A stretch of DNA of 64,000 nucleotides. Origin: Planctomycetota bacterium. GTDB taxonomy: Bacteria > Planctomycetota > Planctomycetia > Pirellulales > Pirellulaceae. Made by a program: the position numbers and the translations under genes. The stretch is taken from the NCBI GenBank assembly GCA_026692865.1, contig JAPLNI010000058.1:186001-250000 (forward strand), written 5' to 3'. Below the pieces are notes generated by a model, which saw nothing but the letters and a program-made list of their open reading frames with translations, had not been told where the DNA came from and searched no databases. Positions within the stretch are counted from its first letter, which is position 1. Each line of letters starts with the position of its first letter. Positions 8,301 through 37,632 of this stretch are shown here, piece after piece.

Positions 8301-9080
8301 CAAGAAGATAGCCCGACCAAAATTGAAACCAGTGGCAAAGTACGATTGATTCAAGTTGTAAACAACAGCGTCGAAGAAATCGCAGCTGTAGTAAAACAAG
8401 TCTTCGCCGATCGGATTGCTGCCGCTCCGAATGCAGGCGGCGGTGGAGGAGGCCAACAACGACAACCTAGTCCCCAGGAGTTTATGGAAGCTCTGCGCGG
8501 AGGTGGTGGTGGGCGAGGCGGTCGTGGTGGCGGTGCATCGAGCGAATTAAAGCAAGCAACCATGACCGTTGGAACCGATGTCAAGAATAACACGCTCATT
8601 ATTACGTCCTCGCAAAACCTGTACGATGAAGTAACAGAACTGGTTACAATGCTCGATCAAGCTGCACTTGAAAAAGAGGAGAAAGTGGAGGTCGTTCAAT
8701 TAGATGGAAGCGTCAACGCAACAGTCCTTCAAAACGCACTTCGCGCAACCTTCGGTGCTCAAGCGAAGTCAACAAACGTAGCCGCAACCTCATCGAACTC
8801 GTCATCACCTTCCAGCAGTGGCAATAGTTCTTCAAGCAGTAGCGGTTCTCCGTCAAGCGGTGGTGGATTTGATCCTGCAGCAGCTGCACAGAGAGCCGAA
8901 TTTTTTCGCCAATTTCAAGGCGGTGGCCCCGGTGGTTTTGGAAGAGGTGGAGGTGGAGGCCCGCCCGGTTTTGGTGGATTCGGTGGTTTTGGCAGTGGTG
9001 ATCGAGGGGGTGATCGAGGTGGCTCGGGAAGCTCCCAAGGTGGTGACGCTGGTCGAAGCCGAAGTCGTGGTGGTCGATAG
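5331..9080 (+). CDS. GspD-like secretin N-domain protein lacking a recognisable barrel
   Basis: First gene of the secretion operon, 1249 residues. After a start-proximal stretch comes a signal-peptide-like segment (about residues 45-66, ending near STFASDD). A helical charged region (70-215) and an STN/N0-like domain (about 310-390) follow. Then come at least six N1-type KH-fold repeats, recognisable as IPLKFV..A.EVL, NIVQLNRIDTQSA, FYLKFVSAKAASELL and RLIQVVNNSVEEIA, each with a following 'NTLIIxxS/G' strand. Glycine runs separate the late repeats and the protein ends in a long Gly/Ser-rich tail. No C-terminal secretin pore domain is visible. It probably forms periplasmic rings or a scaffold. 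The start could instead be the ATG at 5421, which would shorten the n-region. Confidence 0.85.
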   Translation: MDSLTFEAIIALYNWLSERFDQSRLVGRRSMQLFIRSRISSLISCRSMVFGVVLAAQSLVACSTFASDDPEMLGVLPLILKPEIAQQMTISPSQQDRIAEVIEARREEALDLASQLRALPPAERPNKMRDLVREIEKRGAAVLNLQQRSQMERLRISEQGLSTLADPDVAQTLELSAGQAEQVQMILGLRGQLSRELGGEAAANAEVDRRLRDQLTPSQWSTWQAMAGQSAKKPTSTAAVEASSPSNSIDNQKAPPAMVPDGVAQAPAAADSQIDSRAAANLPTAQDPATLQNQTSDRNTKAPSTAEMVSKSMEIPLTINFKATPWEQVLQWIAGEAELSLQADAFPPGTFTYRDPYRTYTVGEALDVMNGVLLSKGYRLVRRQRSLMVIDLGNGESPEVVRGLIRELAELVSPEELDNRGEYELLKCLFVLSRQSPEEAQKEIMLLIGPEGSTVPLPSASQILVTETAGKLKLIREMLSRVENPDNVRGSKIVTIPLKFVTAEEVLAVARPLLGLKEATNQSEDLNVSTDTFGNTIYATGSPDKLQKLSDFVLQIDVKPDASGPTSVTIEQPTLKTHRILSSDPDTALSVLQTLLAGSANVRMALEPKTNSIVASGTQADHKLIIDTLAELAGQNSSFNIVQLNRIDTQSAILTLEKFFGKTSSKEGDATGGPIFFGDLASRTIMVKGSPQEVEQVKDLISKLEETGPQADLLGKSVRVLPMTGKNADRALEQIQYLWEAKKKKNRIQIRLPASEANKPDEESIREAQPETREPSASIRKGKNPTNSPFNRLGRLVATQITTSSDLATASSESVGIKADVQSSEVQPNDNNAPLQQENENEGADIMIFRGPNGLIVTSDDPEALEEFEQLARMVTEQMSFGPTEPTVFYLKFVSAKAASELLNSILSGEASSSGGGGGGLLGSVLGEVGGGLVGSLLGGGGGGSDVSTISGGMASGEISMTADPRLNCLVVRANSADLDLISDLLETIDQEDSPTKIETSGKVRLIQVVNNSVEEIAAVVKQVFADRIAAAPNAGGGGGGQQRQPSPQEFMEALRGGGGGRGGRGGGASSELKQATMTVGTDVKNNTLIITSSQNLYDEVTELVTMLDQAALEKEEKVEVVQLDGSVNATVLQNALRATFGAQAKSTNVAATSSNSSSPSSSGNSSSSSSGSPSSGGGFDPAAAAQRAEFFRQFQGGGPGGFGRGGGGGPPGFGGFGGFGSGDRGGDRGGSGSSQGGDAGRSRSRGGR

Positions 9081-9158
9081 CTTCTCGATCGATTCTACTA
9101 ATAGATGCTGTTGGTGCTGCTGCAAAGCGACCTTTGTAAGGGTGAGATTGATAAAATC

Positions 9159-10859
9159 ATGTTGATAATCGAAGCGGGTGAGCTACTACATCGTCATGGA
9201 CTGCTCACTGAAGAGCAGGTAGCGATGGCGCGTTCAAGTGCTAACGGTGGCTCGGTAGTGGACTCGGCTATTCAGCACGGTTTTGTGACGGAGCAGAATG
9301 CGCTTCGAGTGCTCGCGGACGAGACTGGCTTGGACTACATCGACTTGCGAACCACCGAAGTGGATCTCTCGCTTCTTGAAACGTTTCCGCAAAAACTGAT
9401 TTACCGACATTCGCTTTTTCCAATTCGTCGCAATAACGGTGCGATCGTCGTTGCGACTTCGAACCCATTTGATCTTTATCCGATCGATGAGGCGTCGGCG
9501 GCAACACGCTGCCCAATGATTCCGGTCCTCGCTGAACGTGTTGAGATTGCTAAGCTGGTGAAGAAACACCTTGGCGTCGGAAGCGAGACCGTTGAAGGTT
9601 TAATGGCTTCACGCGGCGACGAAGACATTGAGTTGCTGGAAGCAATCGAAGGCGACGGTAGTGAACTTGCTGAGATGGCGCAAGAGGCGTCGGTGGTTCG
9701 GTTGGTTAATGAAATTCTTGTTGAAGCAGTCGATAGCCGCGCGTCGGACGTACACGTTGAATCGCAATCGGCAGGCCTCGTCATCCGATACCGAATCGAC
9801 GGTATTTTGCACACTCAACCGGTTCCTCCGGAGATCAACCGATTCCAAGCCGCCATCATTTCGCGTTTGAAAATCATGGCTCGGATGAACATTGCGGAAA
9901 AGCGACTTCCTCAAGACGGTCGTATCAAACTGCGAGTTCACGGACGAGAGATTGACATTCGGGTTTCAGTGATTCCGATGATCCACGGCGAAAGTCTTGT
10001 CATGCGTATCTTGGATAAAGGATCGATGAAGTTCGATTTGCGCAACCTTGGAATGGATGAGGCGACCTACAAAACCTTCAGCAGTCTTATCCGCGTCCCA
10101 CACGGCATCATCTTGGTAACCGGGCCGACGGGGTCAGGAAAAACGACAACGCTTTACAGTTCGCTTTTGGAGATCAAATCTCCTGAAAACAAGATCATCA
10201 CGACAGAAGATCCGGTCGAGTATCAGCTAGATGGAATCAACCAGATTCAAGTCCATCCCAAGATTGGATTGACGTTTGCTGCTTCGCTGAGAAGCATTCT
10301 TCGACACGATCCGGATATCGTGCTTGTCGGTGAAATTCGAGATGCTGAAACGGCTGAGAATGCGATCCAAGCTTCCCTGACCGGTCACACGGTCTTTAGT
10401 ACTCTTCACACCAACGATGCAGCTGGCGCTTTTACGCGGATCGTTGACATGGGGATCGAACCATTTTTGGTGGCCAGTACAGTTGAAGGCGTTATGGCCC
10501 AGCGATTAGTTCGTCGGCTGTGCAAACATTGCAAGGAGGCCTATCATCCAGCCCACGATGAGTTGCCCTCGGACTTTCCTTTTGAAGCACTTGGCGATGG
10601 AGTCTTATATCGAAGCGTTGGATGTCGCGAGTGTCGTGGCGTTGGATATACCGGTCGAATGGGTATCTACGAGCTGATGATTACGACTGAAGAGATTCGT
10701 CAGTTGGCACACGATCGCGTCAGTAGTTACATTATCCGACAGGCAGCTCTTCGAGGTGGAATGAAAACGCTTCGGATGGATGCATGGAGGAAGGCTTTGG
10801 AAGGCTCGTCGAGCGTTGATGAAGTGTTGCGATCGACCAAGGGAGACGCATTAGGATAG
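9159..10859 (+). CDS. gspE: Type II secretion ATPase GspE
   Basis: Cytoplasmic ATPase that powers pseudopilus assembly. The N-terminal GspE/MshEN-type domain (about 1-150) is followed by the RASDVHVE motif typical of GspE/PilB, Walker A GPTGSGKTTT, an Asp box (EDPVEYQ), Walker B DIVLVGEIRDAET and a His box (TGHTVFSTLHTN). A tetracysteine zinc site is present: CKHC and, about 40 residues later, CREC, as in GspE proteins. 566 residues from the ATG at 9159; an upstream in-frame start at 9105 would add residues without family support. gspF begins 4 bp after the stop. Confidence 0.96.
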   Translation: MLIIEAGELLHRHGLLTEEQVAMARSSANGGSVVDSAIQHGFVTEQNALRVLADETGLDYIDLRTTEVDLSLLETFPQKLIYRHSLFPIRRNNGAIVVATSNPFDLYPIDEASAATRCPMIPVLAERVEIAKLVKKHLGVGSETVEGLMASRGDEDIELLEAIEGDGSELAEMAQEASVVRLVNEILVEAVDSRASDVHVESQSAGLVIRYRIDGILHTQPVPPEINRFQAAIISRLKIMARMNIAEKRLPQDGRIKLRVHGREIDIRVSVIPMIHGESLVMRILDKGSMKFDLRNLGMDEATYKTFSSLIRVPHGIILVTGPTGSGKTTTLYSSLLEIKSPENKIITTEDPVEYQLDGINQIQVHPKIGLTFAASLRSILRHDPDIVLVGEIRDAETAENAIQASLTGHTVFSTLHTNDAAGAFTRIVDMGIEPFLVASTVEGVMAQRLVRRLCKHCKEAYHPAHDELPSDFPFEALGDGVLYRSVGCRECRGVGYTGRMGIYELMITTEEIRQLAHDRVSSYIIRQAALRGGMKTLRMDAWRKALEGSSSVDEVLRSTKGDALG

Positions 10860-10863
10860 TACG

Positions 10864-12084
10864 ATGGTAGACTTTAATTACACGGCACGTGATTCCAGCG
10901 GCAAGGTCGCCAAAGGGACAATCTCCGCAAACTCACAACGCGAAGCGGCCGTGCAACTCGGCTCGCGAATGCTCTTTCCGATCACGATCACAGCCGACGC
11001 CGAAAGCGCGAAGGCGGGTAAGGGAATGTTCAGCGGTTTCGGTGGACGAGTTAGCGGCGGAAAGATGGCGTCGTTTTACTCTCAGCTCGGCGGTTTGCTT
11101 CAAAGTGGTGTGCCGATGATTCGGGCGCTCACGGTTCTATCGCAACAAACAGGAAGCCCTGTACTGCAGGCTGCATTGGCCGATGTCAAGTCGCGTGTTG
11201 AAGAAGGTGAAACGCTGGGCGATGCTTTCGCGCGTCACCCGAAAATTTTCAATGACATGGCTTGCAACATGGTTCGCGCTGGTAGCGAAGGTGGATTCCT
11301 CGAAGACGCTCTCGAGCGTATCGCGTCGTTTGTCGAGCAGCAAGAAGAGCTTAAAGGAAAGACGGTTGGAGCACTTGCCTACCCGGTCTTCATCAGCGCG
11401 GTTGGTGGAATAGTTGTTACGGTACTATTAGTTTTCTTTGTGCCTCAGTTCGATACGCTATTCGACGCAATGCGCAAGCGTGGTTCACTACCGATGGCGA
11501 CCGAAGTGCTGCTTGCGATTAGCCGATTTGTGAAAGCCTATTGGTGGTTGATGGCAATTGCGGGAATCGGAGGTTTGGTTTTCCTCTCGCAATACTTTAA
11601 GTCTGAAGCCGGGAAGCGACGTTGGGATTTGCTTAAGATTAAGACACCACTTTTGGGGAGCGTATTCCTGAATTTGTCGGTTTCGCGATTTTGCCGAGTC
11701 TTGGGAACACTCCTTGCCAACGGTGTTCCACTTTTGAAATCACTGGACATTAGCCGTCATGCCGCCGGTAATCGAATCCTTGCTGAATCGGTTGCGCAAG
11801 CGAGCGAGGAAGTCACCGCAGGCTCGAGACTTGCAAAACCGCTGGACGCTTGTGGTCATTTCCCTAAAACGGTTGTGGAGATGATCTCCGTGGCCGAAGA
11901 ATCGAACACGCTCGATAAAGTTCTCGTACAGATATCCGAGAGTCTCGAGAAAGTTACCTTTAGAAGACTGGAAGTAGTTGTCAGGCTTTTAGAACCGGTC
12001 ATGCTACTCCTATTGGCGATGATTGTCATGTTCGTTGTGCTCGCGCTGATGGTACCAGTCCTGAACAGTTCAAGTACTTTGTAA
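10864..12084 (+). CDS. gspF: Type II secretion inner-membrane platform protein GspF
   Basis: Polytopic inner-membrane protein that couples GspE to the pseudopilus. It begins with the family's MVDFNYTARDSSGKVAKGTI pattern and contains two T2SSF repeats (about residues 70-195 and 275-395). Membrane segments lie after each repeat (VFISAVGGIVVTVLLVFFVPQF and a final MLLLLAMIVMFVVLALMVP) and around WWLMAIAGIGGLVFL. 406 residues is the standard length. It begins 4 bp after gspE, so the two are very likely translated together. Confidence 0.96.
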   Translation: MVDFNYTARDSSGKVAKGTISANSQREAAVQLGSRMLFPITITADAESAKAGKGMFSGFGGRVSGGKMASFYSQLGGLLQSGVPMIRALTVLSQQTGSPVLQAALADVKSRVEEGETLGDAFARHPKIFNDMACNMVRAGSEGGFLEDALERIASFVEQQEELKGKTVGALAYPVFISAVGGIVVTVLLVFFVPQFDTLFDAMRKRGSLPMATEVLLAISRFVKAYWWLMAIAGIGGLVFLSQYFKSEAGKRRWDLLKIKTPLLGSVFLNLSVSRFCRVLGTLLANGVPLLKSLDISRHAAGNRILAESVAQASEEVTAGSRLAKPLDACGHFPKTVVEMISVAEESNTLDKVLVQISESLEKVTFRRLEVVVRLLEPVMLLLLAMIVMFVVLALMVPVLNSSSTL

Positions 12085-12130
12085 CAAATCCAAAAGATTG
12101 TTTTACTCCCACCTCATGGAAAGAATAAAG

Positions 12131-12592
12131 ATGTATTCCCCCGCCCTTTGCAATAAATCCAAAAGCGAATCGCTTGACCGACTCATGATTAAATCCACAC
12201 GTGGTCGCACGTATCGTTCGGCGTTTACTTTGATCGAAGTTCTTTTGGTTCTTGCCATTTTGGTTGTCGTGGCAGGATTTGTGACCTTTAACGTGATTGG
12301 TGTTGCTGACGAAGCGAATAAGAAAGCGGCGAAAGTACAAATCGCTAACCTCGCAAGTTTCGTGAATACTTATCGGCTTACTGTTGGCTCGTTTCCGTCC
12401 ACCCTTGATGCACTTTATACGCAACCGAGCGATCTCCAAGATGTTTCCAAGTGGACTCAACTGAGTGCGAAACCGATTCCGCCAGATCCTTGGGGTCGTG
12501 CGTACGAGTTCAAGATTGACGGTTCGAAATTTGAAATTCGTTCGGTCGGTCCCGATGGCCAATCGAACACTCCTGATGACCTTGTGAATTAG
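12131..12592 (+). CDS. gspG: Major pseudopilin GspG
   Basis: Major subunit of the secretion pseudopilus. A class III prepilin leader ends at SA, followed by FTLIEVLLVLAILVVVAGF, the hydrophobic assembly helix with the essential Glu at +5. The C-terminal globular domain has the GspG hallmarks: TYRLTVGSFPSTLDAL, PPDPWGRAYEF and the acidic Ca-binding end SVGPDGQSNTPDDL. The cleavage position is Ala rather than the more usual Gly. The start is uncertain: ATG 12131 gives a 31-residue leader, whereas ATG 12185 gives a classical 13-residue leader. Confidence 0.94.
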   Translation: MYSPALCNKSKSESLDRLMIKSTRGRTYRSAFTLIEVLLVLAILVVVAGFVTFNVIGVADEANKKAAKVQIANLASFVNTYRLTVGSFPSTLDALYTQPSDLQDVSKWTQLSAKPIPPDPWGRAYEFKIDGSKFEIRSVGPDGQSNTPDDLVN

Positions 12593-12640
12593 CGAGACGC
12601 TTCAAGCCAAGAAACCTTTCAGTCCAAGTCTTCCCCAACT

Positions 12641-13282
12641 ATGGTTTCTAAAACCTCACGCCCCGCGTTTACCCTGATAGAGCTGTTACTAGTTCTATCG
12701 ATTTTGGTAGCCGCGTTGGCGGTGGTGGCACCCAATATTGAAGGCATGCTTACCGCACGAGCAGTTCAAACTGGGGTAGAAGCGGTGCGTGTAGAACTTC
12801 AGAAGGCTCGCATCGAAGCCATTCGGACGGGCCAAATTCAGGCGTTTCGTTGCCAAGTAGGATCAAAAGAATACGCCGTGGAGTCTTGGCTATCGGCAAG
12901 CGACGAAACGGAAGCAAGCGTTGGCGCAACGATTATCTCCCAAACCGGTCAAGCGTTGGAAACGAGCGCCGGAGCGACTGGGGTTTCAGCGTCGATTGAT
13001 GATACTCCGGTCGGTCAAAAATCGCTGGACGGAAATGTGGTGTTTGCAGACCTCCAAATTGCCTCGGACCGAAGATCTATCGCTGAGCAAACCGGTTCGG
13101 ACCCGTTAGCGTTGGCTGCAAGCGGTGCGCCTCAAGCGATATTGCTTTACCCGGACGGTAGCAGTTCAACGGCACATATTGTCGTGCAGGATGCAAGGGG
13201 AAGAAGAATGGCTGTGCAGTTACGAGGACTCACCGGCCAAGTCGAAGTTATAGAAATGCCCTCCGTTGCACCAGGCACTTAA
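12641..13282 (+). CDS. gspH: Minor pseudopilin GspH
   Basis: Minor pseudopilin, 213 residues. The short leader MVSKTSRPA is followed by FTLIELLLVLSILVAALAVV, with Glu at +5 and again Ala at -1. After the helix comes the GspH pattern of arginine-rich, alternating residues (ARAVQTGVEAVRVELQKARIEAIRTG). The C-terminal half is a beta-rich domain ending in LLYPDGSSSTAHIVVQD and GRRMAVQLRGLTGQVEV, as in GspH/FimT proteins. It sits between gspG (48 bp upstream) and gspI (1 bp downstream). Confidence 0.9.
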   Translation: MVSKTSRPAFTLIELLLVLSILVAALAVVAPNIEGMLTARAVQTGVEAVRVELQKARIEAIRTGQIQAFRCQVGSKEYAVESWLSASDETEASVGATIISQTGQALETSAGATGVSASIDDTPVGQKSLDGNVVFADLQIASDRRSIAEQTGSDPLALAASGAPQAILLYPDGSSSTAHIVVQDARGRRMAVQLRGLTGQVEVIEMPSVAPGT

Positions 13283-13283
13283 C

Positions 13284-13997
13284 ATGCGAAACTTCACAAC
13301 CTTTATTGCAAGATCGGACCGGCAATTCCTCGTTGTCCCTGTGTCTGGGCTGATGAAATCTGAGCCGATGGCGCTAGCCACGGGTTTTGATTTTGCTAAC
13401 GTTTGTCCGTCAGCACCCGAGGCTAGCGCCTACGGTTCAGGAAAAACGCAATTTTCATCAGCCCACCCTGTGTCTGTTACTTGCGAACATCTTACATGTC
13501 CCGTGCCGAGAATTAATCGCGCAGGTCTTTCATTGCTGGAAGTAATGCTCGCCCTTTCCATTCTTGGCGTATCGACTGCGATCCTGTCTCAAATACTTCA
13601 AATCGGTACCGATAATGGATTGCGAGCCAGACGTATCACTCAAGCTCAGATGCTTTGCGAATCGAAGATGAACGAAGTTGTTCTCGGAAGTGTTTCTACG
13701 CAGAGCACTACTTGGACTCCGATAACCGTCGGTGTTGCCAACGCAGAATGGTTTTTTCAAGTACAGACGATTGCGGCCGAACAGCCTAGTTTAATTGGCG
13801 TGGTTGTCTCGGTCTCGGATTCACAGAGTATTAGCGAAAACCGACCACCGCTCGCAAGATTAGTCCAATGGATTATTGATCCAAGCCTTGGGATGGACAG
13901 CAAGTCAACGCCCGATTCAGCAGCCACGGACACGAGTTCAGGCGGTTCTAATTCTGGTAGTACGGCTTCAGGGGCCGCTCCCGGAGGTGGCATATGA
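13284..13997 (+). CDS. gspI: Minor pseudopilin GspI with a repeat in its leader region
   Basis: Prepilin core INRAG followed by LSLLEVMLALSILGVSTAIL, then RARRITQAQMLCESKMNEVVLGS, the GspI pattern. From the ATG at 13284, one base after the gspH stop, the leader would be 81 residues, far longer than the usual 6-30. Most of it is encoded by an 81-bp dispersed palindromic repeat (13361-13441), read in frame without a stop. A GTG at 13503 would instead give a normal 8-residue leader. Abutting gspH argues for the ATG, leader length for the GTG. The C-terminus is a Ser/Gly/Thr-rich tail. Overlaps gspJ by 4 nt (ATGA). Confidence 0.86.
   Translation: MRNFTTFIARSDRQFLVVPVSGLMKSEPMALATGFDFANVCPSAPEASAYGSGKTQFSSAHPVSVTCEHLTCPVPRINRAGLSLLEVMLALSILGVSTAILSQILQIGTDNGLRARRITQAQMLCESKMNEVVLGSVSTQSTTWTPITVGVANAEWFFQVQTIAAEQPSLIGVVVSVSDSQSISENRPPLARLVQWIIDPSLGMDSKSTPDSAATDTSSGGSNSGSTASGAAPGGGI
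13361..13441 (+). repeat. Dispersed palindromic repeat, family A, copy 1 (inside gspI)
   Basis: Arms TGAGCCGATGGCGCTAGCC (13361-13379) and GGCTAGCGCCTACGGTTCA (13421-13439) form a long imperfect inverted repeat around a 41-bp spacer. The spacer's ends are also partly complementary (GGGT and ACCC). The element is 81 bp, a multiple of three, and open in the gspI frame. Related copies lie at 15201-15281 and 22015-22101, with a single arm at 62519-62537. Confidence 0.9.
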
Positions 13998-15118
13998 TAA
14001 CGCGACGACTCAACACGAAACGCTCGGGTTTAACGCTTCTTGAAGTCATTCTGGCTCTTGGATTGACGGTCGTGGTGATGTTGTTATTAGGCGGCTTGAT
14101 TGCAATCTACCAGGGGAGTCTGGATATTGGTCGCGATAACATTCGACAGGCGAGAATTGCTCGAGCCATCCTAGCGATGATTGCTGATGATCTACGTGGC
14201 GTCATTCGTAACAGTCAACAAGACGATGCTGCAAGCTTGAAGGAGTTTTTGTCGAGTACTTCATCCACACCTGCAGGTGCTTCGGGTGCTCAAGGCGCGA
14301 ATCAACCGGGCGGCGGCGCGAGCCCGACTGCTGGAGGAACTCTTGCCGGAGCAGCGGGTGCTGGCAGTTCGGATAGCACGTCGACGGGATCAGCAACCGA
14401 TACGACAGACGCGAGCATGGAAACCACGACATCGACTTTGCAGCCGGGGGTTTATGGTTCTGAATCATCCATTGAAATCGATGTTTCACGGCCTCCGCGC
14501 ATCGAAGAGTACGCGGCTGAATTGGTGAATCCGCTGTCGGGTACTTTGACAGACATTCCGAGCGACATGAAGACGGTCAGCTACTTCGTTCAGGCTCCCC
14601 AGCTGGATGGAGTTCAAGATCCTTTGGCTGGTTTGAGTGGTCCAGTTGCAACGGGAGCAGATAGTGCTGGGGCGGGTATCGCGGGTTCGGCATTGATGCA
14701 AAACGGTGGGCTTGTTCGACGTGCGATTGATCGAGGCGTTTATCGATGGGCTGCTGAAAATGGACAGATCGCTCAAGTCAACAAGACAGGACAAATCGTT
14801 GCACCGGAGATTATCGCACTCTCTTTTTCTTACTTTGACGGCCAACAATGGACAACCACTTGGGACAGCAGCGTGTCGGGAATTCCATGGGCGGTAAACA
14901 TTTCAATTTATATGCAGCATGCTAAAGCGGCTCGTGAGAATCCGGTTCCAGCCGGTGTATCGATGCTCGCACTCACTAGTGGAATCATGGCAGAATCCGG
15001 AATTGAAATGTATTCGATGATGGTAAACATTCCCGGAGCTCAATCGTTGATGACTCCTTCCGAACAGCAATCGACCACGACGACCGATGCTTCTTCGACA
15101 AGCTCGTTAGGATTTTAA
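13994..15118 (+). CDS. gspJ: Minor pseudopilin GspJ
   Basis: Minor pseudopilin, 374 residues. Leader MITRRLNTKRSG is followed by LTLLEVILALGLTVVVMLLLGGLI, with Glu at +5 and Gly at -1. It is longer than the usual ~200-residue GspJ because of a Gly/Ala/Ser/Thr-rich insertion (about residues 85-155, SSTSSTPAGASGAQG onward). The conserved late part includes GVYRW and IIALSFSYFDGQQWTTTWDSS, which matches the GspJ 'F.YwDG..W...W' pattern. The start overlaps the gspI stop (ATGA) and the stop overlaps the gspK start (TAATG). Confidence 0.9.
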   Translation: MITRRLNTKRSGLTLLEVILALGLTVVVMLLLGGLIAIYQGSLDIGRDNIRQARIARAILAMIADDLRGVIRNSQQDDAASLKEFLSSTSSTPAGASGAQGANQPGGGASPTAGGTLAGAAGAGSSDSTSTGSATDTTDASMETTTSTLQPGVYGSESSIEIDVSRPPRIEEYAAELVNPLSGTLTDIPSDMKTVSYFVQAPQLDGVQDPLAGLSGPVATGADSAGAGIAGSALMQNGGLVRRAIDRGVYRWAAENGQIAQVNKTGQIVAPEIIALSFSYFDGQQWTTTWDSSVSGIPWAVNISIYMQHAKAARENPVPAGVSMLALTSGIMAESGIEMYSMMVNIPGAQSLMTPSEQQSTTTTDASSTSSLGF

Positions 15119-17916
15119 TGATGAACACGAAGAGATCAATAAATTGCGGTGTTGTTGAGATTCATCCGCTAAATTCTGAGCGTACCACTGGAGCAAATCC
15201 TGAGCCGATGGCGCTAGCCAAGGGTTTAGACGCTGCTACAGTTTGTCAGAACGCACCCGAGGCTAGCGCCTACGGCTCAGGAAACACCACCTTTGTTTCA
15301 TGCGATTTACGGCCCTTGCTGCGTGACAACAACTACTGGAAACCGGTGCGCCAATACTGGAAAGATCGGCGTGCGATGTTGCTATTGATGGTTCTTCTTG
15401 TCGTCAGTGGAGTGTCGCTAACAGCACTTGCGTTTTCGGAATCGATGCTAGTCGGCTTTGAAGAAAGCCTTTTGATGGGGCGATCGTCGCAAGCGCGTGC
15501 GGCGGCTGATTCGGGAGTTGCCGCGGTACGAGTTTTTCTAGCCAATAGCAAATCTGCTCAGAAAGACGCCGGAGGAGCATGGAGTAATCCAACGTATTTT
15601 CAAGCGGTCAATGTGGTTCCCGATAGCGATCCGCAAGAGCTCTGCCATTTCTCCGTTGTAGCACCTAGCTTGGACGAAGACGGACGCTTCAGCAGTGTTC
15701 GATTTGGTCTGCAGAATGAATCGGCTCGTATCAACCTGAACGCATTGGTTGTGATGGATAAGGAGCTTGGGACAACTGCCGCAGCGGCCGCCGCTTTGAC
15801 TGGCAGCAGCAATCTTGGCGATCTATCTGGAGCAGGAGTTCCCAGCGATCTGTCTTCAAGCGGAAGTTCCGGATCGAGTGATTCCAGTCAAGCGAGTCTC
15901 GGGCGCCAGTTGCTGATGGGACTGGAAGGAATGACCGATGAAATCGCTGACTGCATTTTGGACTTTATCGATGAAGACGATGATGTTCGTGAGTTTGGAG
16001 CCGAGCGAGAATACTACGTTGGTTTGCAATCGCCTTACAATCCGCCCAATGGTCCACTTCACTCGGTGGACGAATTGCTCTTAGTCAAAGGCGTCACTCC
16101 CGGTTTACTCTATGGTGCAGACCAAAATCGCAACGGCGTAGTCGATGGCTTTGAACAATCACAAATAGCAACGTTGGAAGCGACCACTACGCCGACGGCT
16201 TCAGCTACGGATTTATCTTCGGGCTCGTCATCCAGTGGATCCTCTACATCGACATCGCAATTGGGTTGGGCGGCCTACTTCACAACCATCAGCCGAGAAA
16301 AAAACGTCGGGTTCGATGGTACGGCACGAGTAAACGTCAACGGAACAGACCTTGAAGCATTGCAGGAAGAACTCAACACGTCTCTCGGAAACGAGACATG
16401 GGCTTCTTATATCCTCGCTTATCGATTGCATGGAGGTACAACTGCCGATCAAGCTGCCCTCGCAGCACTCGCCGGTTCGGGAGCTCTCGGGCAGGGTGGA
16501 ACTGGCGGAGGAGGAGGTCGCCCCGGTGCGGGAGGTCAGGGACAAAACAATGGTCCCGGTGGAGGCAGAGGTGGCCCCAATGATGGCGGCAGAGGTGGAC
16601 CAAACGACGGAGGTCGCGGCGGCCCTAATGACGGTGGGCGAGGTGGACAAAATGGTGGCCCAGGTAATGGCCCCGGTAATGGTCCAGGGAATGGTCCCGA
16701 TCGTGGCCCGGGGCAAGGTCAAGGCCCCGGACAGGGTCAGGGACGAGGCGACGCGCGCGGTGGCCAAAACGACGATCAAGGTGGCGGTCGGGGGAATGGC
16801 GGGCCCGGTGGCGGGCGCGGCAATGGAGGCGGGGGAGCCAATCGTGGTGGTGGCGGTAGATCTGCGTTTTCAAATCAGGGTTCAAGCTTGATAAAATTGG
16901 TTGCCATGCAAGCACCTCGCGGTCAAGGTCAAGGTCGCGGTAACGATAACGCGGGAGGTGGACGAGGTGGTAATGGTCCTGGTGGAAACGGCCCGGGAGC
17001 GAACGGACCTGGTGGAAACGGACCTGGTGGAAACGGACCTGGTGGAAACGGCCCGGGAGCGAACGGCCCCGGAGGAAACGGACCTGGAGGAAACGGACCT
17101 GGAGGAAACGGACCTGGAGGAAATAGGCCAGGTGTTAATGGCCCCGATGGCAACAACGGCGGTCGACCAGGCCAAGGAAATGGACCTGGAAATGGTCAAG
17201 GCGGAAATGGTGGTCGACCCGGAAGTGGCCGGCCAGGCGCTGGCGGAGGTGGAGGTGCTGGCGGTGGAGGTGCTGGCGGCGGCGGTGGTGTGTCTAAGCC
17301 AGTGCCTTGGACCAGCAGTGCCCTGGAGCTTAAAAGTGGTGCTCAGCCCAAGGCGAATTTGAAGCAGGTTCTTGATCTAATCGGTTCAACTATCACCATC
17401 ACGCAAGGAAACACTTCGACGACTTACACGTCCCCTTTTGCTGATGATCCGATCGCGATGGCGATTTATCTTCCAATACTTATGGACAAATTAACAACAG
17501 TTGCTAGCCCAACGATCGCAGGTCGGATTAATATCAATGAATCGCCGCGCGAGATTCTTGCCGGTTTACCTGGGATGACTGAGGAACTTTTAGAACAAAT
17601 CATGGAAGCAAGAGCAGAGACGAGCGAAAGCGAAAACCGAAAGTTTGAAACATGGCCTATGGTCGAAGGTTTGCTCACGCTCCAACAGATGCGAACTATC
17701 CAGCCGCTCATCACGGGTGGTGGAGACATCTATCGAGCTCAGGTGGTTGGCTACTATGAACAGGGAGCGGCTTATTCGCGTATTGAAGCATGGATTGATT
17801 CATCGAACGCTCATCCAATCGTGATTTCCTATCGTCGGCTGGATCACCTTGGACGAGGCTTCGCAAATGCGACGCTCGGACAACGATCCATCGATAATCC
17901 TCTTCGTTCCAAATAG
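15118..17916 (+). CDS. gspK: Minor pseudopilin GspK with a giant low-complexity insertion
   Basis: GspK caps the pseudopilus tip. The hydrophobic prepilin segment is MLLLMVLLVVSGVSLTALAF after KDRRA. Two T2SSK helix-hairpin-helix regions are visible: SARINLNALV with GMTDEIADCILDFIDEDDD, and GRININESPREILAGLPGM. A Gly/Asn/Pro/Arg-rich stretch of roughly 270 residues (about 455-725) separates them and contains tandem repeats, giving 932 residues against about 320 usually. The start overlaps the gspJ stop as TAATG. From there the leader is 86 residues and includes an in-frame copy of repeat family A (15201-15281). A GTG at 15346 would give a 10-residue leader. Confidence 0.88.
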   Translation: MMNTKRSINCGVVEIHPLNSERTTGANPEPMALAKGLDAATVCQNAPEASAYGSGNTTFVSCDLRPLLRDNNYWKPVRQYWKDRRAMLLLMVLLVVSGVSLTALAFSESMLVGFEESLLMGRSSQARAAADSGVAAVRVFLANSKSAQKDAGGAWSNPTYFQAVNVVPDSDPQELCHFSVVAPSLDEDGRFSSVRFGLQNESARINLNALVVMDKELGTTAAAAAALTGSSNLGDLSGAGVPSDLSSSGSSGSSDSSQASLGRQLLMGLEGMTDEIADCILDFIDEDDDVREFGAEREYYVGLQSPYNPPNGPLHSVDELLLVKGVTPGLLYGADQNRNGVVDGFEQSQIATLEATTTPTASATDLSSGSSSSGSSTSTSQLGWAAYFTTISREKNVGFDGTARVNVNGTDLEALQEELNTSLGNETWASYILAYRLHGGTTADQAALAALAGSGALGQGGTGGGGGRPGAGGQGQNNGPGGGRGGPNDGGRGGPNDGGRGGPNDGGRGGQNGGPGNGPGNGPGNGPDRGPGQGQGPGQGQGRGDARGGQNDDQGGGRGNGGPGGGRGNGGGGANRGGGGRSAFSNQGSSLIKLVAMQAPRGQGQGRGNDNAGGGRGGNGPGGNGPGANGPGGNGPGGNGPGGNGPGANGPGGNGPGGNGPGGNGPGGNRPGVNGPDGNNGGRPGQGNGPGNGQGGNGGRPGSGRPGAGGGGGAGGGGAGGGGGVSKPVPWTSSALELKSGAQPKANLKQVLDLIGSTITITQGNTSTTYTSPFADDPIAMAIYLPILMDKLTTVASPTIAGRININESPREILAGLPGMTEELLEQIMEARAETSESENRKFETWPMVEGLLTLQQMRTIQPLITGGGDIYRAQVVGYYEQGAAYSRIEAWIDSSNAHPIVISYRRLDHLGRGFANATLGQRSIDNPLRSK
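15201..15281 (+). repeat. Dispersed palindromic repeat, family A, copy 2 (inside gspK)
   Basis: Same 81-bp length, arms and spacing as copy 1: TGAGCCGATGGCGCTAGCC at 15201-15219 and GGCTAGCGCCTACGGCTCA at 15261-15279. The 41-bp spacer shares GGGTTT, GTTTGTC and GCACCCGA with copy 1. It is read in the same frame as the copy in gspI, giving matching peptides EPMALA...APEASAYGSG in both leaders. Confidence 0.9.
16564..16659 (+). repeat. 24-bp tandem coding repeat in gspK
   Basis: Four tandem 24-bp units encode GGRGGPND-type octapeptides. Units differ at several third-codon positions, so the repeat is old enough to have diverged silently while keeping the peptide. Confidence 0.75.
16981..17145 (+). 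repeat. 15-bp minisatellite in gspK
   Basis: About eleven tandem 15-bp units of the type GGTGGAAACGGACCT encode GGNGP or GANGP pentapeptides. The last two units are degenerate. Several adjacent units are identical, which suggests recent slippage or unequal recombination, so copy number may vary between isolates. Confidence 0.85.
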
Positions 17917-34191: not shown

Positions 34192-37100
34192 ATGAATGCC
34201 AACGTTCTTGACAATCGTCATCGCCCGCTCGACTTGAGTTTGGTGAATCCCAAGTTCTTTCCTCGAACGCACTTGGTGGATAGCCTGCGGCACTGGGCAA
34301 ACGTCCAGCCAACTTCGCCTGCGTTTTGGTTCACCGATGGTGAAACGGACCAGGACGAAACGCTTAGCTATGCTGAACTGGATCATGCTGCGCGAGCCTT
34401 GGCGGTTGAGATTTTGAAAGTCGCCAACCCTGGTGATCGCGGAATCTTGATGTATCCACCTGGGCTGGATTTCATCATTGGATTCTTCGGGTGCCTCTAC
34501 GCAGGTTGCACCGCCGTACCTGCTTTTCCGCCACGACGCAACCGAAAAGGGTCGCGTATCCAAGGCATCGCACAAGACTGCGCGGCGAAGTTTGGTTTGA
34601 CTATCGAAACCACTGCCACACAAATCATGAAGGATGACGCGACTCGAGAAGACATGTCGACGATGAAGTTGATCTCGAGTGATCGGGTTGATCGATCGAT
34701 GGCAATTCAGTTTTCGCCCGTCAGCATCGACGTTGAAGATGTCGCCGTATTGCAATACACATCCGGATCTACTGGCACGCCCAAAGGAGTTGTCCTGACG
34801 CACGAGTGCATCATGCGAAACTGCGAGATGATTGCGTTCTTGTTCGGTCAAGTACACGATGAGGTTGGTGCTAGCTGGTTACCTACCTATCACGACATGG
34901 GCTTAGTAGGCGGAATTTTGAGTCCAGTATTCCTCGGCTTGCCACTCGCTTTGATGAGCCCAATGTCATTCCTGCAACGCCCCGTACGGTGGCTACGAGC
35001 CATCACCAAGTACAACGTAACCATGTCCGGCGGGCCAAATTTTGCTTATCAGCTTTGTGTTGATAAAGTTACTGAAGAGGAAATGAAGGGGCTCGATCTA
35101 AGCAAATGGCGAGTCGCTTTCAATGGCGCTGAACCGGTACGAGCCAGCACTCTCGAAGCCTTCAGTCGCAAATTCGAGCAAGTTGGATTTCGGCATACGT
35201 CGCACCTTCCAACCTACGGAATGGCAGAAACCACTTTGATCGTGACGGCGGGTCCTCACGCAGACATGCCAGTGATAAGGCACTATGACGGTCGGCATCT
35301 TGCTGCTCGAGTTGTTCTCCCGGTTGAACGGAATACGCCCGACTCGAGAGCTCTGGTTGGTTGCGGTCAGATGTCTCCCAATGAGCGAGTTGAAATCGTC
35401 GATACGGAAACTTCTGCAATCTTGCCAGATGATCAGATCGGTGAGATTTGGATTCAAAGTCCAAGCGCTGGAACGGGCTATTGGGAAAAACCAGATATTA
35501 CCGAAAAGACATTCAACGCGATGACTGCCGACGGTCAAGGACCTTTCTTGCGAACTGGCGATCTTGGCTTCTTCGAAGATGGCCAACTTTTCGTCGCCGG
35601 GCGTGTCAAGGATCTCATTATTGTTCGCGGTGTGAATCGCTATCCTCAAGACATTGAACAGACCGTCGAAGAGTGTCACGAGTCGATTCAATCATCAGCT
35701 GCTGCAGCTTTTTCCGATGATATCGACGGTCGTGAGCGGCTGATCATTGCCTTGGAAGTGCAGCGATCCCTGGAAGAAGATTGGGAACCAGTAATTCAAG
35801 CGATTCGAAAATCGGTCACGCAAGTCCATGAGTTGCCACCCGATGCGGTCATCCTTGTGCGAAGCGGATCGCTCCCGAAAACCTCCAGCGGCAAGATCCA
35901 GCGTCACGCTTGTCTTCAAGGTTTCAAAGACGACACGCTCCGTGTAATCGCCAAATGGGTTAGCTGGGAAGACGACCTTCCACCGACGGCTCCTATGATC
36001 GCAGCGGCCACTGTCGATCAATTGGCCGGACGGCCTTCCAAAGGCTCCGCGCGACCAACTGCCGTCATCGCTAAAAAGACGCGTGACCCGGATGTCGATG
36101 TTGTTGAGATTGTAAAACGTGCCGTCAAAGCGGTCGCTCAAGAACGAGCAAAACTGCTTGACCTGGACACGAACATCGTTGTCGATTTGGGGCTAGATAG
36201 TTTGGAACGACTTCAGATCGCGCACTCGCTCGAGAACGCTTTCGGAGGACGAATCCCCGAAGAGACTCTTCAAGAAATCGAAACGATCCGCGAAATTGCA
36301 GAAGCCTTAGAAAGTCTTTTTGGCAAAGATCGAGTCATCTCGGATCTCGCGCCGGAACAAGACGATGCACCGAAGGCTCCTCGTACGATTACGCCTGACG
36401 AATACCAGTTTGACCAACTACCAGAGTATCGTCGGCTCAAGCAAACGATGATGCAGTTCGATATGACGGGTGTACCGAATCCTTATTTTTCTGTCCATCA
36501 AGGTCTAACTCGCGATACTACAACGATCGATGGCAAGGAATACATCAGCTTTGCAAGTTACAACTACCTAGGCATGAGCGGTGATCCCGAAGTAAGCCAA
36601 GCAGTCATTGATGCAGTAGCCAAATACGGTACTAGCGTCTCTGCGTCGCGATTAGTAAGTGGAGAGAAAGATCTTCACCGCGAGCTTGAGAAAGGAATCG
36701 CTGAGTGGATTGGCGTCGATGACTCTATAGTCCTAGTCGGTGGGCACTCGACCAACGAAACGATTATCGGCCATATCGTAGATTCTCCCGACCTGATCCT
36801 CCACGATTCGTTGTCGCACAATAGTATCGTACAGGGAGCCATGTTGTCCGGTGCAAGAAGACGCCCATTCGCGCACAACGACTGGGAAGCTCTCGATGAA
36901 GCTCTCACAGAACAACGCTCGAACTACCGACGGGTTCTTGTGATCATCGAAGGCGTTTACAGCATGGACGGAGATTATCCAAATCTTCCTAAGTTCATCG
37001 AGATCGTGAAAAAGCATCAGTGCTGGTTGATGGTGGATGAGGCTCACAGTATCGGAACGATGGGGGCGACCGGTCGCGGTATTGGCGAACATTTTGGTGT

Positions 37101-37632
37101 CGATCCACATGATGTCGATATCTGGATGGGTACACTCAGCAAGTCATTTGGATCTTGCGGCGGATACATTGCGGGTAGGAAATCGTTGATTGAATATCTC
37201 AAGTACACAACGCCCGGGTTCGTATTCAGCGTTGGGTTGTCACCTCCAAATACTGCCGCTGCAATTGCGTCGCTGAATGTATTGAAGCAAAATCCCGAAC
37301 GTGTGACTCGACTGAAAGAAGCGTCACGCCTCTTTTTGACCGAAGCCAAGAAGCACGGTTTGAACACCGGCAGCAGTGGTGACACGGCAGTTGTGCCTGT
37401 GATCACCGGAAATTCGCTGCACGCATTGCAGTTGTCGCGTCGAATGTTTGAATCGGGAGTCAACGTCCAGCCTATTCTCTATCCTGCAGTGGAAGAGTCG
37501 GCGACAAGGCTTCGGTTCTTTATCAACTCGACTCACACGAACCAACAGATTTTGTTTGCCGTCGATAAAGTTGCTCAGCATCTTAAAAAGATTGCACCCG
37601 AGTACTTTAAATCGACAAACAAAAAAGACTGA
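34192..37632 (+). CDS. Fused fatty acyl-AMP ligase, acyl carrier domain and alpha-oxoamine synthase
   Basis: One 1146-residue chain with three enzymatic parts. Residues 1-600: adenylating enzyme of the FAAL type, with YTSGSTGTPKGVVLTH, ASWLPTYHDMGLVGGIL, the FAAL pattern RWLRAITKYNVTMSGGPNFAY, and RTGDLGFFEDGQLFVAGRVKD. Residues about 640-730: acyl carrier domain with phosphopantetheine Ser670 in DLGLDSLERL. Residues about 750-1135: PLP-dependent alpha-oxoamine synthase (KBL/BioF/serine palmitoyltransferase fold) with SYNYLGMSGDPEV, VDEAHSIGTMGATGRG and Schiff-base Lys984 in GTLSKSFGSCGG. Inferred chemistry: activate a fatty acid, load it on the carrier, condense with an amino acid to release CO2 and an amino-ketone, as in sphingoid-base synthesis. 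Amino acid unknown. Confidence 0.92.
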   Translation: MNANVLDNRHRPLDLSLVNPKFFPRTHLVDSLRHWANVQPTSPAFWFTDGETDQDETLSYAELDHAARALAVEILKVANPGDRGILMYPPGLDFIIGFFGCLYAGCTAVPAFPPRRNRKGSRIQGIAQDCAAKFGLTIETTATQIMKDDATREDMSTMKLISSDRVDRSMAIQFSPVSIDVEDVAVLQYTSGSTGTPKGVVLTHECIMRNCEMIAFLFGQVHDEVGASWLPTYHDMGLVGGILSPVFLGLPLALMSPMSFLQRPVRWLRAITKYNVTMSGGPNFAYQLCVDKVTEEEMKGLDLSKWRVAFNGAEPVRASTLEAFSRKFEQVGFRHTSHLPTYGMAETTLIVTAGPHADMPVIRHYDGRHLAARVVLPVERNTPDSRALVGCGQMSPNERVEIVDTETSAILPDDQIGEIWIQSPSAGTGYWEKPDITEKTFNAMTADGQGPFLRTGDLGFFEDGQLFVAGRVKDLIIVRGVNRYPQDIEQTVEECHESIQSSAAAAFSDDIDGRERLIIALEVQRSLEEDWEPVIQAIRKSVTQVHELPPDAVILVRSGSLPKTSSGKIQRHACLQGFKDDTLRVIAKWVSWEDDLPPTAPMIAAATVDQLAGRPSKGSARPTAVIAKKTRDPDVDVVEIVKRAVKAVAQERAKLLDLDTNIVVDLGLDSLERLQIAHSLENAFGGRIPEETLQEIETIREIAEALESLFGKDRVISDLAPEQDDAPKAPRTITPDEYQFDQLPEYRRLKQTMMQFDMTGVPNPYFSVHQGLTRDTTTIDGKEYISFASYNYLGMSGDPEVSQAVIDAVAKYGTSVSASRLVSGEKDLHRELEKGIAEWIGVDDSIVLVGGHSTNETIIGHIVDSPDLILHDSLSHNSIVQGAMLSGARRRPFAHNDWEALDEALTEQRSNYRRVLVIIEGVYSMDGDYPNLPKFIEIVKKHQCWLMVDEAHSIGTMGATGRGIGEHFGVDPHDVDIWMGTLSKSFGSCGGYIAGRKSLIEYLKYTTPGFVFSVGLSPPNTAAAIASLNVLKQNPERVTRLKEASRLFLTEAKKHGLNTGSSGDTAVVPVITGNSLHALQLSRRMFESGVNVQPILYPAVEESATRLRFFINSTHTNQQILFAVDKVAQHLKKIAPEYFKSTNKKD

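Follow-up and report, generated by a model that had tools for sequence, protein, structure and literature searches.

A FAAL-ACP-alpha-oxoamine synthase fusion widespread in Pirellulales: a candidate acyl carrier-dependent serine palmitoyltransferase-like enzyme

The stretch of DNA analysed here (the window) comprises 64,000 nucleotides from a Planctomycetota bacterium of the family Pirellulaceae (assembly GCA_026692865.1, contig JAPLNI010000058.1; C58:186001-250000 in our numbering), whose genome of 5.55 Mb is 99.4% complete. Positions 34192-37632 of the forward strand hold one open reading frame (ORF) of 1146 amino acids (aa), which starts with ATG, is free of internal stops and had been read from the sequence alone as a fatty acyl-AMP ligase (FAAL), an acyl carrier protein (ACP) and an alpha-oxoamine synthase (AOS) on a single chain. 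The ORF and the order of its Pfam domains bear this out, and the two sites singled out by that reading, the carrier serine (Ser670, in LGLDSL) and the lysine for pyridoxal 5'-phosphate (PLP; Lys984, in GTLSKS), are indeed in place. The features are as follows; SPT stands for serine palmitoyltransferase.

34192..37632, + strand: FAAL-ACP-AOS fusion ORF, 1146 aa (ORF, Pfam, homologues)
34270..35958, + strand: FAAL domain, aa 27-589 (Pfam AMP-binding and DIP2-like domains; PDB matches)
35287..35364, + strand: FAAL-specific insertion, about aa 366-391 (alignment; absent from E. coli FadD)
36112..36309, + strand: acyl carrier protein domain, aa 641-706 (PF00550, 2e-11)
36199..36201, + strand: Ser670 codon, predicted phosphopantetheine attachment site, LGLDSL (motif; 17-sequence alignment)
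36412..37593, + strand: alpha-oxoamine synthase domain, aa 741-1134 (PF00155, 7.9e-50; PDB matches; four trees)
37141..37143, + strand: Lys984 codon, PLP Schiff-base lysine, GTLSKS (alignment with SPT 3A2B, BioF and Kbl)
37231..37233, + strand: Val1014 codon, position of SulA Lys281, Ala in SPT (alignment; PMC9304779)

Pfam recognises an AMP-binding domain (residues 32-431, 1.8e-65), a DIP2-like AMP C-terminal domain (474-587, 1.7e-14), the PP-binding domain PF00550 (641-706, 2e-11) and the Aminotran_1_2 domain PF00155 (783-1125, 7.9e-50), and the motif TSGSTGTPKG lies at residue 190. The fusion is no frame artefact, because a copy 98% identical is present in a second genome of the genus (G001); records from Pirellula, Rhodopirellula and Stieleria are also among the named relatives. 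The succession PF00501-PF00550-PF00155 in one chain equals the A-CP-PLP2 layout in Table 2 of Milano et al (2013; PMC3870968), where such proteins, for example A3ZWL3 of Blastopirellula marina and A1ZVW4 of Microscilla marina, are entered with their product as unknown and a Synechococcus member was modelled on SPT. The likeness is one of layout, with the same order of AMP-binding, phosphopantetheine and Aminotran_1_2 domains and the same AOS assignment; in that paper the A-CP-PLP2 proteins are only listed and modelled.

In the PDB, the fused protein matches 7r7g best (named polyketide synthase; 3.9e-155) and 3kxw next (2e-121), after which come FAALs of the FadD type. In the adenylating half, YGMAE and RTGDL are 113 residues apart, as against 79 in E. 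coli FadD, 113-124 in three other FAALs and 105 and 107 in two AasR-like proteins, and about 26 residues (366-391) are extra relative to FadD and common to the Legionella, Mycolicibacterium and Planktothrix FAALs and the two AasR-like proteins. Since FAALs load holo-ACP and reject CoA (PMC8460268), this FAAL-specific insertion and the FAAL-type top PDB matches argue for loading of an ACP rather than of CoA. Ser670 is invariant among 17 aligned sequences, and the host genome encodes two phosphopantetheinyl transferases above the Pfam cut-off. Apart from this, a phosphopantetheinyl transferase gene elsewhere in the same genome (C25, L208:3765-9624) lies shortly after that of a 913-aa protein which by eye resembles a nonribosomal peptide synthetase adenylation protein; this locus is perhaps a small natural-product cluster.

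In the AOS half, the residues of SPT 3A2B that contact PLP and substrate have aligned counterparts in His876, Asp949, His952, Lys984 and Arg1108, and the AOS hallmarks are present: the PLP lysine Lys984, the stacking histidine, the Asp and His at PLP and the carboxylate-binding Arg1108. In the alignment Lys984 coincides with the catalytic lysine of BioF and Kbl as well as that of SPT 3A2B, and the PLP lysine is kept in 23 of the 24 fused homologues of the alignment. The best PDB matches of the domain are plant LCB2a and human SPTLC2 (1.8e-69, 3.9e-65) and Sphingobacterium SPT 3a2b.

As a separate observation, the PLP lysine is replaced by T or N and the stacking histidine by D, with the arginine kept, in two AOS domains, one within a FAAL-ACP-AOS protein (L096:8167-11646, genome G002) and one within an ACP-AOS protein (L108:9023-10627, genome G020). 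Both genomes also carry AOS that keep the lysine (L107:8564-10072 in the first, L088 and L112 in the second), an arrangement that recalls the inactive LCB1 beside the active LCB2 in eukaryotic SPT. These lysine-less domains group at 89/84 in tree A (the trees are described below) and are unresolved in tree D, and L108 as a query over the order genomes gave best matches of only 57-59%, among long fused frames.

Taken together, we read the protein with moderate confidence as a self-contained, acyl-ACP-dependent SPT-like enzyme that would make a 2-amino-3-keto long-chain base, with serine as the favoured amino acid. We infer every step, that is, the reactions, the substrates and the transfer within the chain, from knowledge of the families. 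The FAAL would adenylate a free long-chain fatty acid with ATP, and the acyl group would move from the resulting acyl-AMP to the phosphopantetheine arm of the built-in ACP (Ser670), giving acyl-S-ACP. The PLP domain would bind an amino acid, by kinship most likely serine, as an external aldimine, and this would condense with the ACP-bound acyl group under loss of CO2 to release a 2-amino-3-keto long-chain base of the 3-oxosphinganine type. The fused protein would dimerise via its AOS domains, and later reduction and N-acylation would be left to enzymes encoded elsewhere. The same path from free acid through acyl-AMP and acyl-ACP to decarboxylative condensation had been proposed by the sequence-only reading; the FAAL insertion, the serine of the DSL motif, the two phosphopantetheinyl transferases and the intact AOS residues are consistent with it, and to that extent the proposal stands.

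The strongest support for this mechanism comes from Caulobacter, in which AasR, AcpR and Spt do the same chemistry: AasR acylates AcpR, not CoA, and Spt prefers acyl-AcpR (Padilla-Gomez et al, 2022; PMC9386255). Like the proposed route, the Caulobacter system leads from free fatty acid over acyl-ACP to 3-oxosphinganine without acyl-CoA (PMC9386255), but it is made of three separate proteins, its AOS belongs to another clade, and a CerR-like gene lies by spt, whereas the search of the host genome reported below found none. Five alphaproteobacterial spt-like loci were compared by BLAST; only one of them passes the SPT model cut-off, and their AasR-, AcpR- and CerR-like labels derive from position and Pfam class. 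Three of the five gave a match to the FAAL part with 31-33% identity, two to the ACP with 26-27% and four to the AOS with 30-34%. RedL, which we take to begin with an adenylating domain and an ACP, is presumably also a fused AOS that condenses a carrier-bound acyl group with an amino acid. RedL and PigH are set apart, by description, through an extra KS-AT or a second ACP and through their place in prodigiosin pigment gene clusters, although the fused AOS of PigH condenses a carrier-bound acyl group with an amino acid (PMC3870968) as we propose for the window protein.

To place the AOS domain, four trees were compared. Tree A covers 66 loci, has no row from L117, L134 or L155, contains two pairs of identical rows, and its bootstrap is unsettled. 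Tree C has 44 rows, with three of the 18 extra loci rowless (L134, L145, L155) and E. coli BioF (a long row), L041 and L059 left out; tree D has 69 rows, namely those of A and C minus near-duplicates and human SPTLC2, with BioF included and bootstrap again unsettled. Trees C and D hold more BioF/Kbl-side rows than trees A and B. In all four, the window AOS falls into one clade, here called carrier-fed, of FAAL-ACP-AOS, ACP-AOS, polyketide synthase (PKS)-AOS and rkpG-like capsule AOS, with support of 100/99 (A, 46 rows), 100/100 (B), 100/100 (C) and 100/99 (D, 37 rows); the label PKS-AOS comes from protein length for L102 and L111 and from PKS model matches for L118 and L119. By its sequence, the window AOS thus belongs to a well-supported clade of its own, which is outside the BioF/Kbl group in trees A, B and D (tree C being without E. 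coli BioF).

Within the AOS family this clade likely falls on the SPT side, as judged from trees C and D, in which a split with support of 100/98 and 100/93, respectively, sets the BioF/Kbl-side rows apart from a group of carrier-fed AOS, LCB2 and bacterial SPTs. LCB2, which with SPTLC2 also provides the best PDB matches of the window AOS, is sister to the carrier-fed clade in the four trees (92/65 in A, 96/94 in B, 91/76 in C, 92/63 in D). Unlike the window protein as read here, LCB2/SPTLC2 is CoA-dependent, forms a membrane-bound heterodimer with LCB1 and has no carrier domain. In the approximately unbiased (AU) test on a 32-row set, for which the groups were chosen after inspection of the tree and the long LCB2 rows were cut to the aligned part, grouping of the carrier-fed clade with BioF/Kbl received p 0.036, its grouping with bacterial SPT, LCB2 excluded, p 0.053, and grouping of LCB2 with bacterial SPT was rejected (p-AU 0.012). 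We treat the apparent kinship of carrier-fed AOS with LCB2 as a lead only.

A number of results weigh against an SPT-like enzyme. Tree A joins bacterial SPTs with BioF/Kbl (84/73), and tree B places the carrier-fed clade nearer BioF/Kbl (63/29). Among the best 25 of 124 family models, the highest-scoring AOS model is TIGR00858 (bioF), not passed with 344 bits versus a cut-off of 426, and the SPT models NF047600, NF047599 and NF047603 are not passed either (311/640, 263/500 and 213/670 bits). At the sequence level, local motifs and conserved residues do not tell SPT from other AOS: the Tyr-Asn-Tyr of the fusion AOS recurs in LCB2 and, among four SPT rows from alphaproteobacteria, in one, the remaining three have Asn-Asn-Tyr, as does Kbl, and GTLSKS is also found in L005, a BioF/Kbl-side enzyme of the host genome. 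The carrier-fed clade probably uses several amino acids, if, as we assume, RedL takes glycine and PigH serine. An AlphaFold2 model from 17 sequences (mean pLDDT 65.7, pTM 0.48) was too weak for a fold search, and our literature search, mostly at surface level, turned up no Pirellulales culture reported to contain sphingolipids. To these are added the lack of a conserved pathway neighbour (the commonest family occurs in 13 of 50 fusion loci), the absence of a match to a CerR-like query in the host genome at E <= 1e-15, and the closer resemblance (35%) of a reductase beside one related AOS (L254, see below) to three planctomycete proteins not tied to SPT. The top-ranking bioF score would fit a housekeeping BioF- or Kbl-type enzyme of the biotin or threonine pathway that was fused by accident, an explanation we find barely credible in view of the unpassed bioF cut-off, of a separate host AOS, L005, that groups with BioF/Kbl (trees A, C and D), and of a long-chain-type FAAL, which would be unexpected for pimeloyl or acetyl transfer.

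As to the amino acid, the same machine might use alanine, glycine or another small one instead of serine and so make 1-deoxysphingoid bases or plain long-chain amino ketones, as a membrane lipid or a small secreted product; we regard this as possible if rather unlikely. Specificity is unreadable from the conserved residues, given the overlap of motifs and the conservation of Ser242 of the template across all selected members in Milano et al (PMC3870968), and SPT itself can accept alanine (PMC11334938); against this stand the SPT-side placement in trees C and D and the best PDB matches, which are SPT subunits. A SulA-like cysteate enzyme for sulfonolipids, a product class the sequence-only reading had entertained, is very unlikely. 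Like the window AOS as proposed here, SulA belongs to the PLP-dependent condensing enzymes of the Spt arm and favours acyl-ACP as substrate (PMC9304779), and the cysteate-C-fatty acyltransferase 28eh in the PDB matches the AOS domain at 2.1e-48, but SulA stands alone without FAAL or ACP, and its Lys281, the hallmark of the cysteate enzyme (PMC9304779), is Val1014 here and a lysine in no row of the alignment, which disfavours a sulfonolipid product.

The occurrence of the fusion was surveyed by searches in which up to 18 (40-genome), 6 (phylum), 10 (146-genome) and 4 (Acidobacteriota-side) candidates were scored per genome, and absences are accordingly provisional. With the whole protein as query, 28 of 40 order genomes, the host included, contain a single FAAL-to-AOS match, which in one of them (G017) has an in-frame TGA; both halves lie within one frame of more than 1,200 aa in three others (G028, G034, G039), the fusion is cut by contig ends in a further three (G003, G006, G018), and it was not found in six of the 40 (G010, G023, G025, G026, G029, G036). 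The order is one to which we presume Blastopirellula marina also belongs. With an ACP-AOS query, 115 of 146 Pirellulales genomes match at E <= 1e-120, 110 of the 146 within a frame as long as the fusion (1,100-1,350 aa), with the FAAL half judged from that frame length, and five within a shorter frame; 31 of the 146 have no ACP-AOS match, and those listed include five of the six f13 genomes and four of genus g26. Because 110 of 146 genomes carry the match in a fusion-length frame, a chance fusion can be set aside. In the phylum survey, 117 of 244 genomes match at E <= 1e-60. The order accounts for twelve, eleven of them with at least 48% identity and a frame of 1,100-1,250 aa; in the 105 genomes outside the order, identity among the matches listed is below 40% save for two at 50%, in a 464-aa frame (G267) and in a 677-aa frame with part of a FAAL (G175). 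On the Acidobacteriota side (149 genomes, at most four candidates scored in each), no whole fusion was found at E <= 1e-110, and one genome (G574) encodes an ACP-AOS of 506 aa. From these order, phylum and Acidobacteriota-side surveys, the fusion therefore comes near to being a core gene, and this in a single order, Pirellulales.

The surveys also brought up other architectures. Two Pirellulales genomes encode proteins of 2,555-2,607 aa that end in an AOS 60-62% identical to that of the window (L102:1546-9369, L111:2419-10086); their length is that of PKS-AOS fusions elsewhere, and frames of similar length recur in the order and phylum surveys. A second, diverged FAAL-AOS fusion of 1,102-1,109 aa, its AOS 37-39% identical, is found at L192:7318-10626 and L103:7621-10950 in genomes that carry the main fusion as well; two proteins of 515-516 aa have AOS that group with it, and one of the two (L185) adjoins a CerR-like reductase.

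The claim that no pathway gene is adjacent to the fusion gene held. Upstream, on the opposite strand, lie genes for an S30AE-type protein, PTS EIIA, HPr, EI and RNase E/G, and downstream, also on the opposite strand, those for an FtsX/MacB-type permease and an ABC ATPase; promoter and terminator counts near the gene are at or below those of shuffled sequence. Across 50 fusion loci (the window and 49 others, many of them close kin and some short), the recurrent neighbours within 9 kb are a weak, below-cut-off BBP7-porin match (13 loci), a xylose-isomerase-like TIM barrel (11), a CoA-binding/DNA-binding protein (10, close kin), a family without Pfam match (9), a pyrroloquinoline quinone (PQQ) beta-propeller protein (8), ribosomal protein L13 (7), a tryptophan-halogenase-type protein (7) and an RF-1-domain protein (6). 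The CoA-binding/DNA-binding protein is presumably of the Rex type. No operon around the fusion was read from these neighbours.

For the ketoreductase whose search in the genome had been suggested, the outcome is mixed. A CerR-like match is present in 10 of the 40 order genomes, and because the host genome yielded none at E <= 1e-15 we do not claim a full ceramide pathway. A query of the RkpH-type short-chain dehydrogenase/reductase (SDR) retrieved one 279-aa SDR of the host genome (36% identity over 180 residues), which we leave without ketoreductase assignment because SDRs are many. One case speaks for the SPT-like reading: on the Acidobacteriota side, an ACP-AOS (L254) that shares 56% identity with the window AOS follows an extended SDR at a distance of 127 bases, and three CerR-like proteins of alphaproteobacteria are about 32% identical to this SDR. 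The argument is weakened by L184, an AOS beside a CerR-like reductase in another Pirellulaceae genome, which we had considered as an SPT and rejected, as it groups with BioF/Kbl and the host's second AOS in four trees; CerR-likeness at about 30% identity is hence no proof of a ceramide pathway. Likewise, an alphaproteobacterial spt neighbour taken as bCerS was discarded, being LptF/LptG according to Pfam, and the survey made with that LptF/LptG-like query is for this reason uninformative on ceramide synthase.

Outside the phylum, near relatives of the window AOS are found in surface-polysaccharide loci. The S. meliloti locus holds a 2,502-aa product annotated as SDR family, an AOS, an SDR and a capsule protein; that on a Pseudomonas plasmid a PKS, an AOS, a GNAT, a lipoteichoic acid (LTA)-synthase-family protein, an SDR and capsule genes; that of Caballeronia an LTA-synthase-family protein, a PKS, a deacetylase, an AOS and export genes; and that of Paraburkholderia a set like the latter without the export genes. 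We take these capsule-locus PKS and AOS genes to be of the rkpA/rkpG type. In a genome of the class of a Geobacteraceae metagenome-assembled genome (MAG), the PKS has the domains KS-AT-DH-ER-KR-ACP, a fatty-acid-type line, and lies near SDR, sulfatase-family and Capsule_synth proteins. The AOS of such loci (L114-L117, L255, L256) are 48-53% identical to that of the window, and L114-L116 belong to the carrier-fed clade in trees A and D, which did not include L117, L255 or L256. Elsewhere, a Streptomyces PKS-AOS adjoins an MMPL transporter and a Planktothrix PKS-AOS sits among glycosyltransferases.

As an observation in its own right, L255:2836-18472 and L256:1817-17337 (Pfam domains run on L255) each combine a fully reducing PKS, a carrier-fed AOS, an SDR and sulfatase-family, formyltransferase-type and Capsule_synth proteins, and possibly make a sphingoid-like lipid anchor for a surface polysaccharide.

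These loci raise an alternative as to role, compatible with the proposed chemistry, in which the aminoketone of Pirellulales is the lipid anchor or carrier of a surface polysaccharide. In its favour, the loci of S. meliloti, Pseudomonas, Caballeronia and Paraburkholderia and two loci of the Geobacteraceae-MAG class bring together a large gene of PKS size, a carrier-fed AOS, and genes for surface polysaccharides or of the LTA-synthase/sulfatase families. We nonetheless consider it improbable, as neither beside the window gene nor among the recurrent Pirellulales neighbours is there a capsule gene, unlike the rkpA/rkpG-type loci with their capsule or export genes, and the Pirellulales version has a FAAL in place of the PKS (KS-AT-DH-ER-KR-ACP) from which the acyl chain would come in L255.

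A wider, doubtful extension of the SPT-like reading is that carrier-fed AOS form a lineage of their own among enzymes that make sphingoid bases, nearer to the catalytic subunit of eukaryotic SPT than any other known bacterial group, which in Pirellulales would give a one-protein, CoA-independent entry to order-wide undescribed sphingoid-type lipids and elsewhere would make surface-polysaccharide anchors. The LCB2 link, if robust to denser sampling, would bear on the origin of eukaryotic SPT. Were the SPT-like reading true, most Pirellulales would have a dedicated pathway to sphingoid-type lipids, into which one protein would lead from free fatty acid. This would offer a single gene to delete or express as a test and, for studies of mechanism, a compact SPT that depends on acyl-ACP. 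Metagenome surveys in which "sphingolipid producers" are scored by Spt homologues would then need a test of their own for fused proteins; a Black Sea study counted 138 Planctomycetota MAGs with Spt-like proteins (PMC11334938).

Neither chemistry nor layout is new, given the three-protein route of Caulobacter (PMC9386255) and the A-CP-PLP2 listing of 2013 (PMC3870968), and the fusion is an uncharacterised fused variant of both. Besides the latter paper, a search mostly at surface level, with subscription journals poorly covered, found none treating the fused protein, and a 2025 FAAL review (PMC11837247) has no mention of PLP, pyridoxal, oxoamine, aminotransferase, sphing or serine palmitoyl. 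The present analysis adds a survey across the order, the recognition of a carrier-fed clade, the finding that the SulA signature is absent, and the kinship with capsule loci. Finally, positions 5331-17916 of the window hold a type II secretion-like gene run with secretin N domains and members of the GspE, GspF and GspK families.

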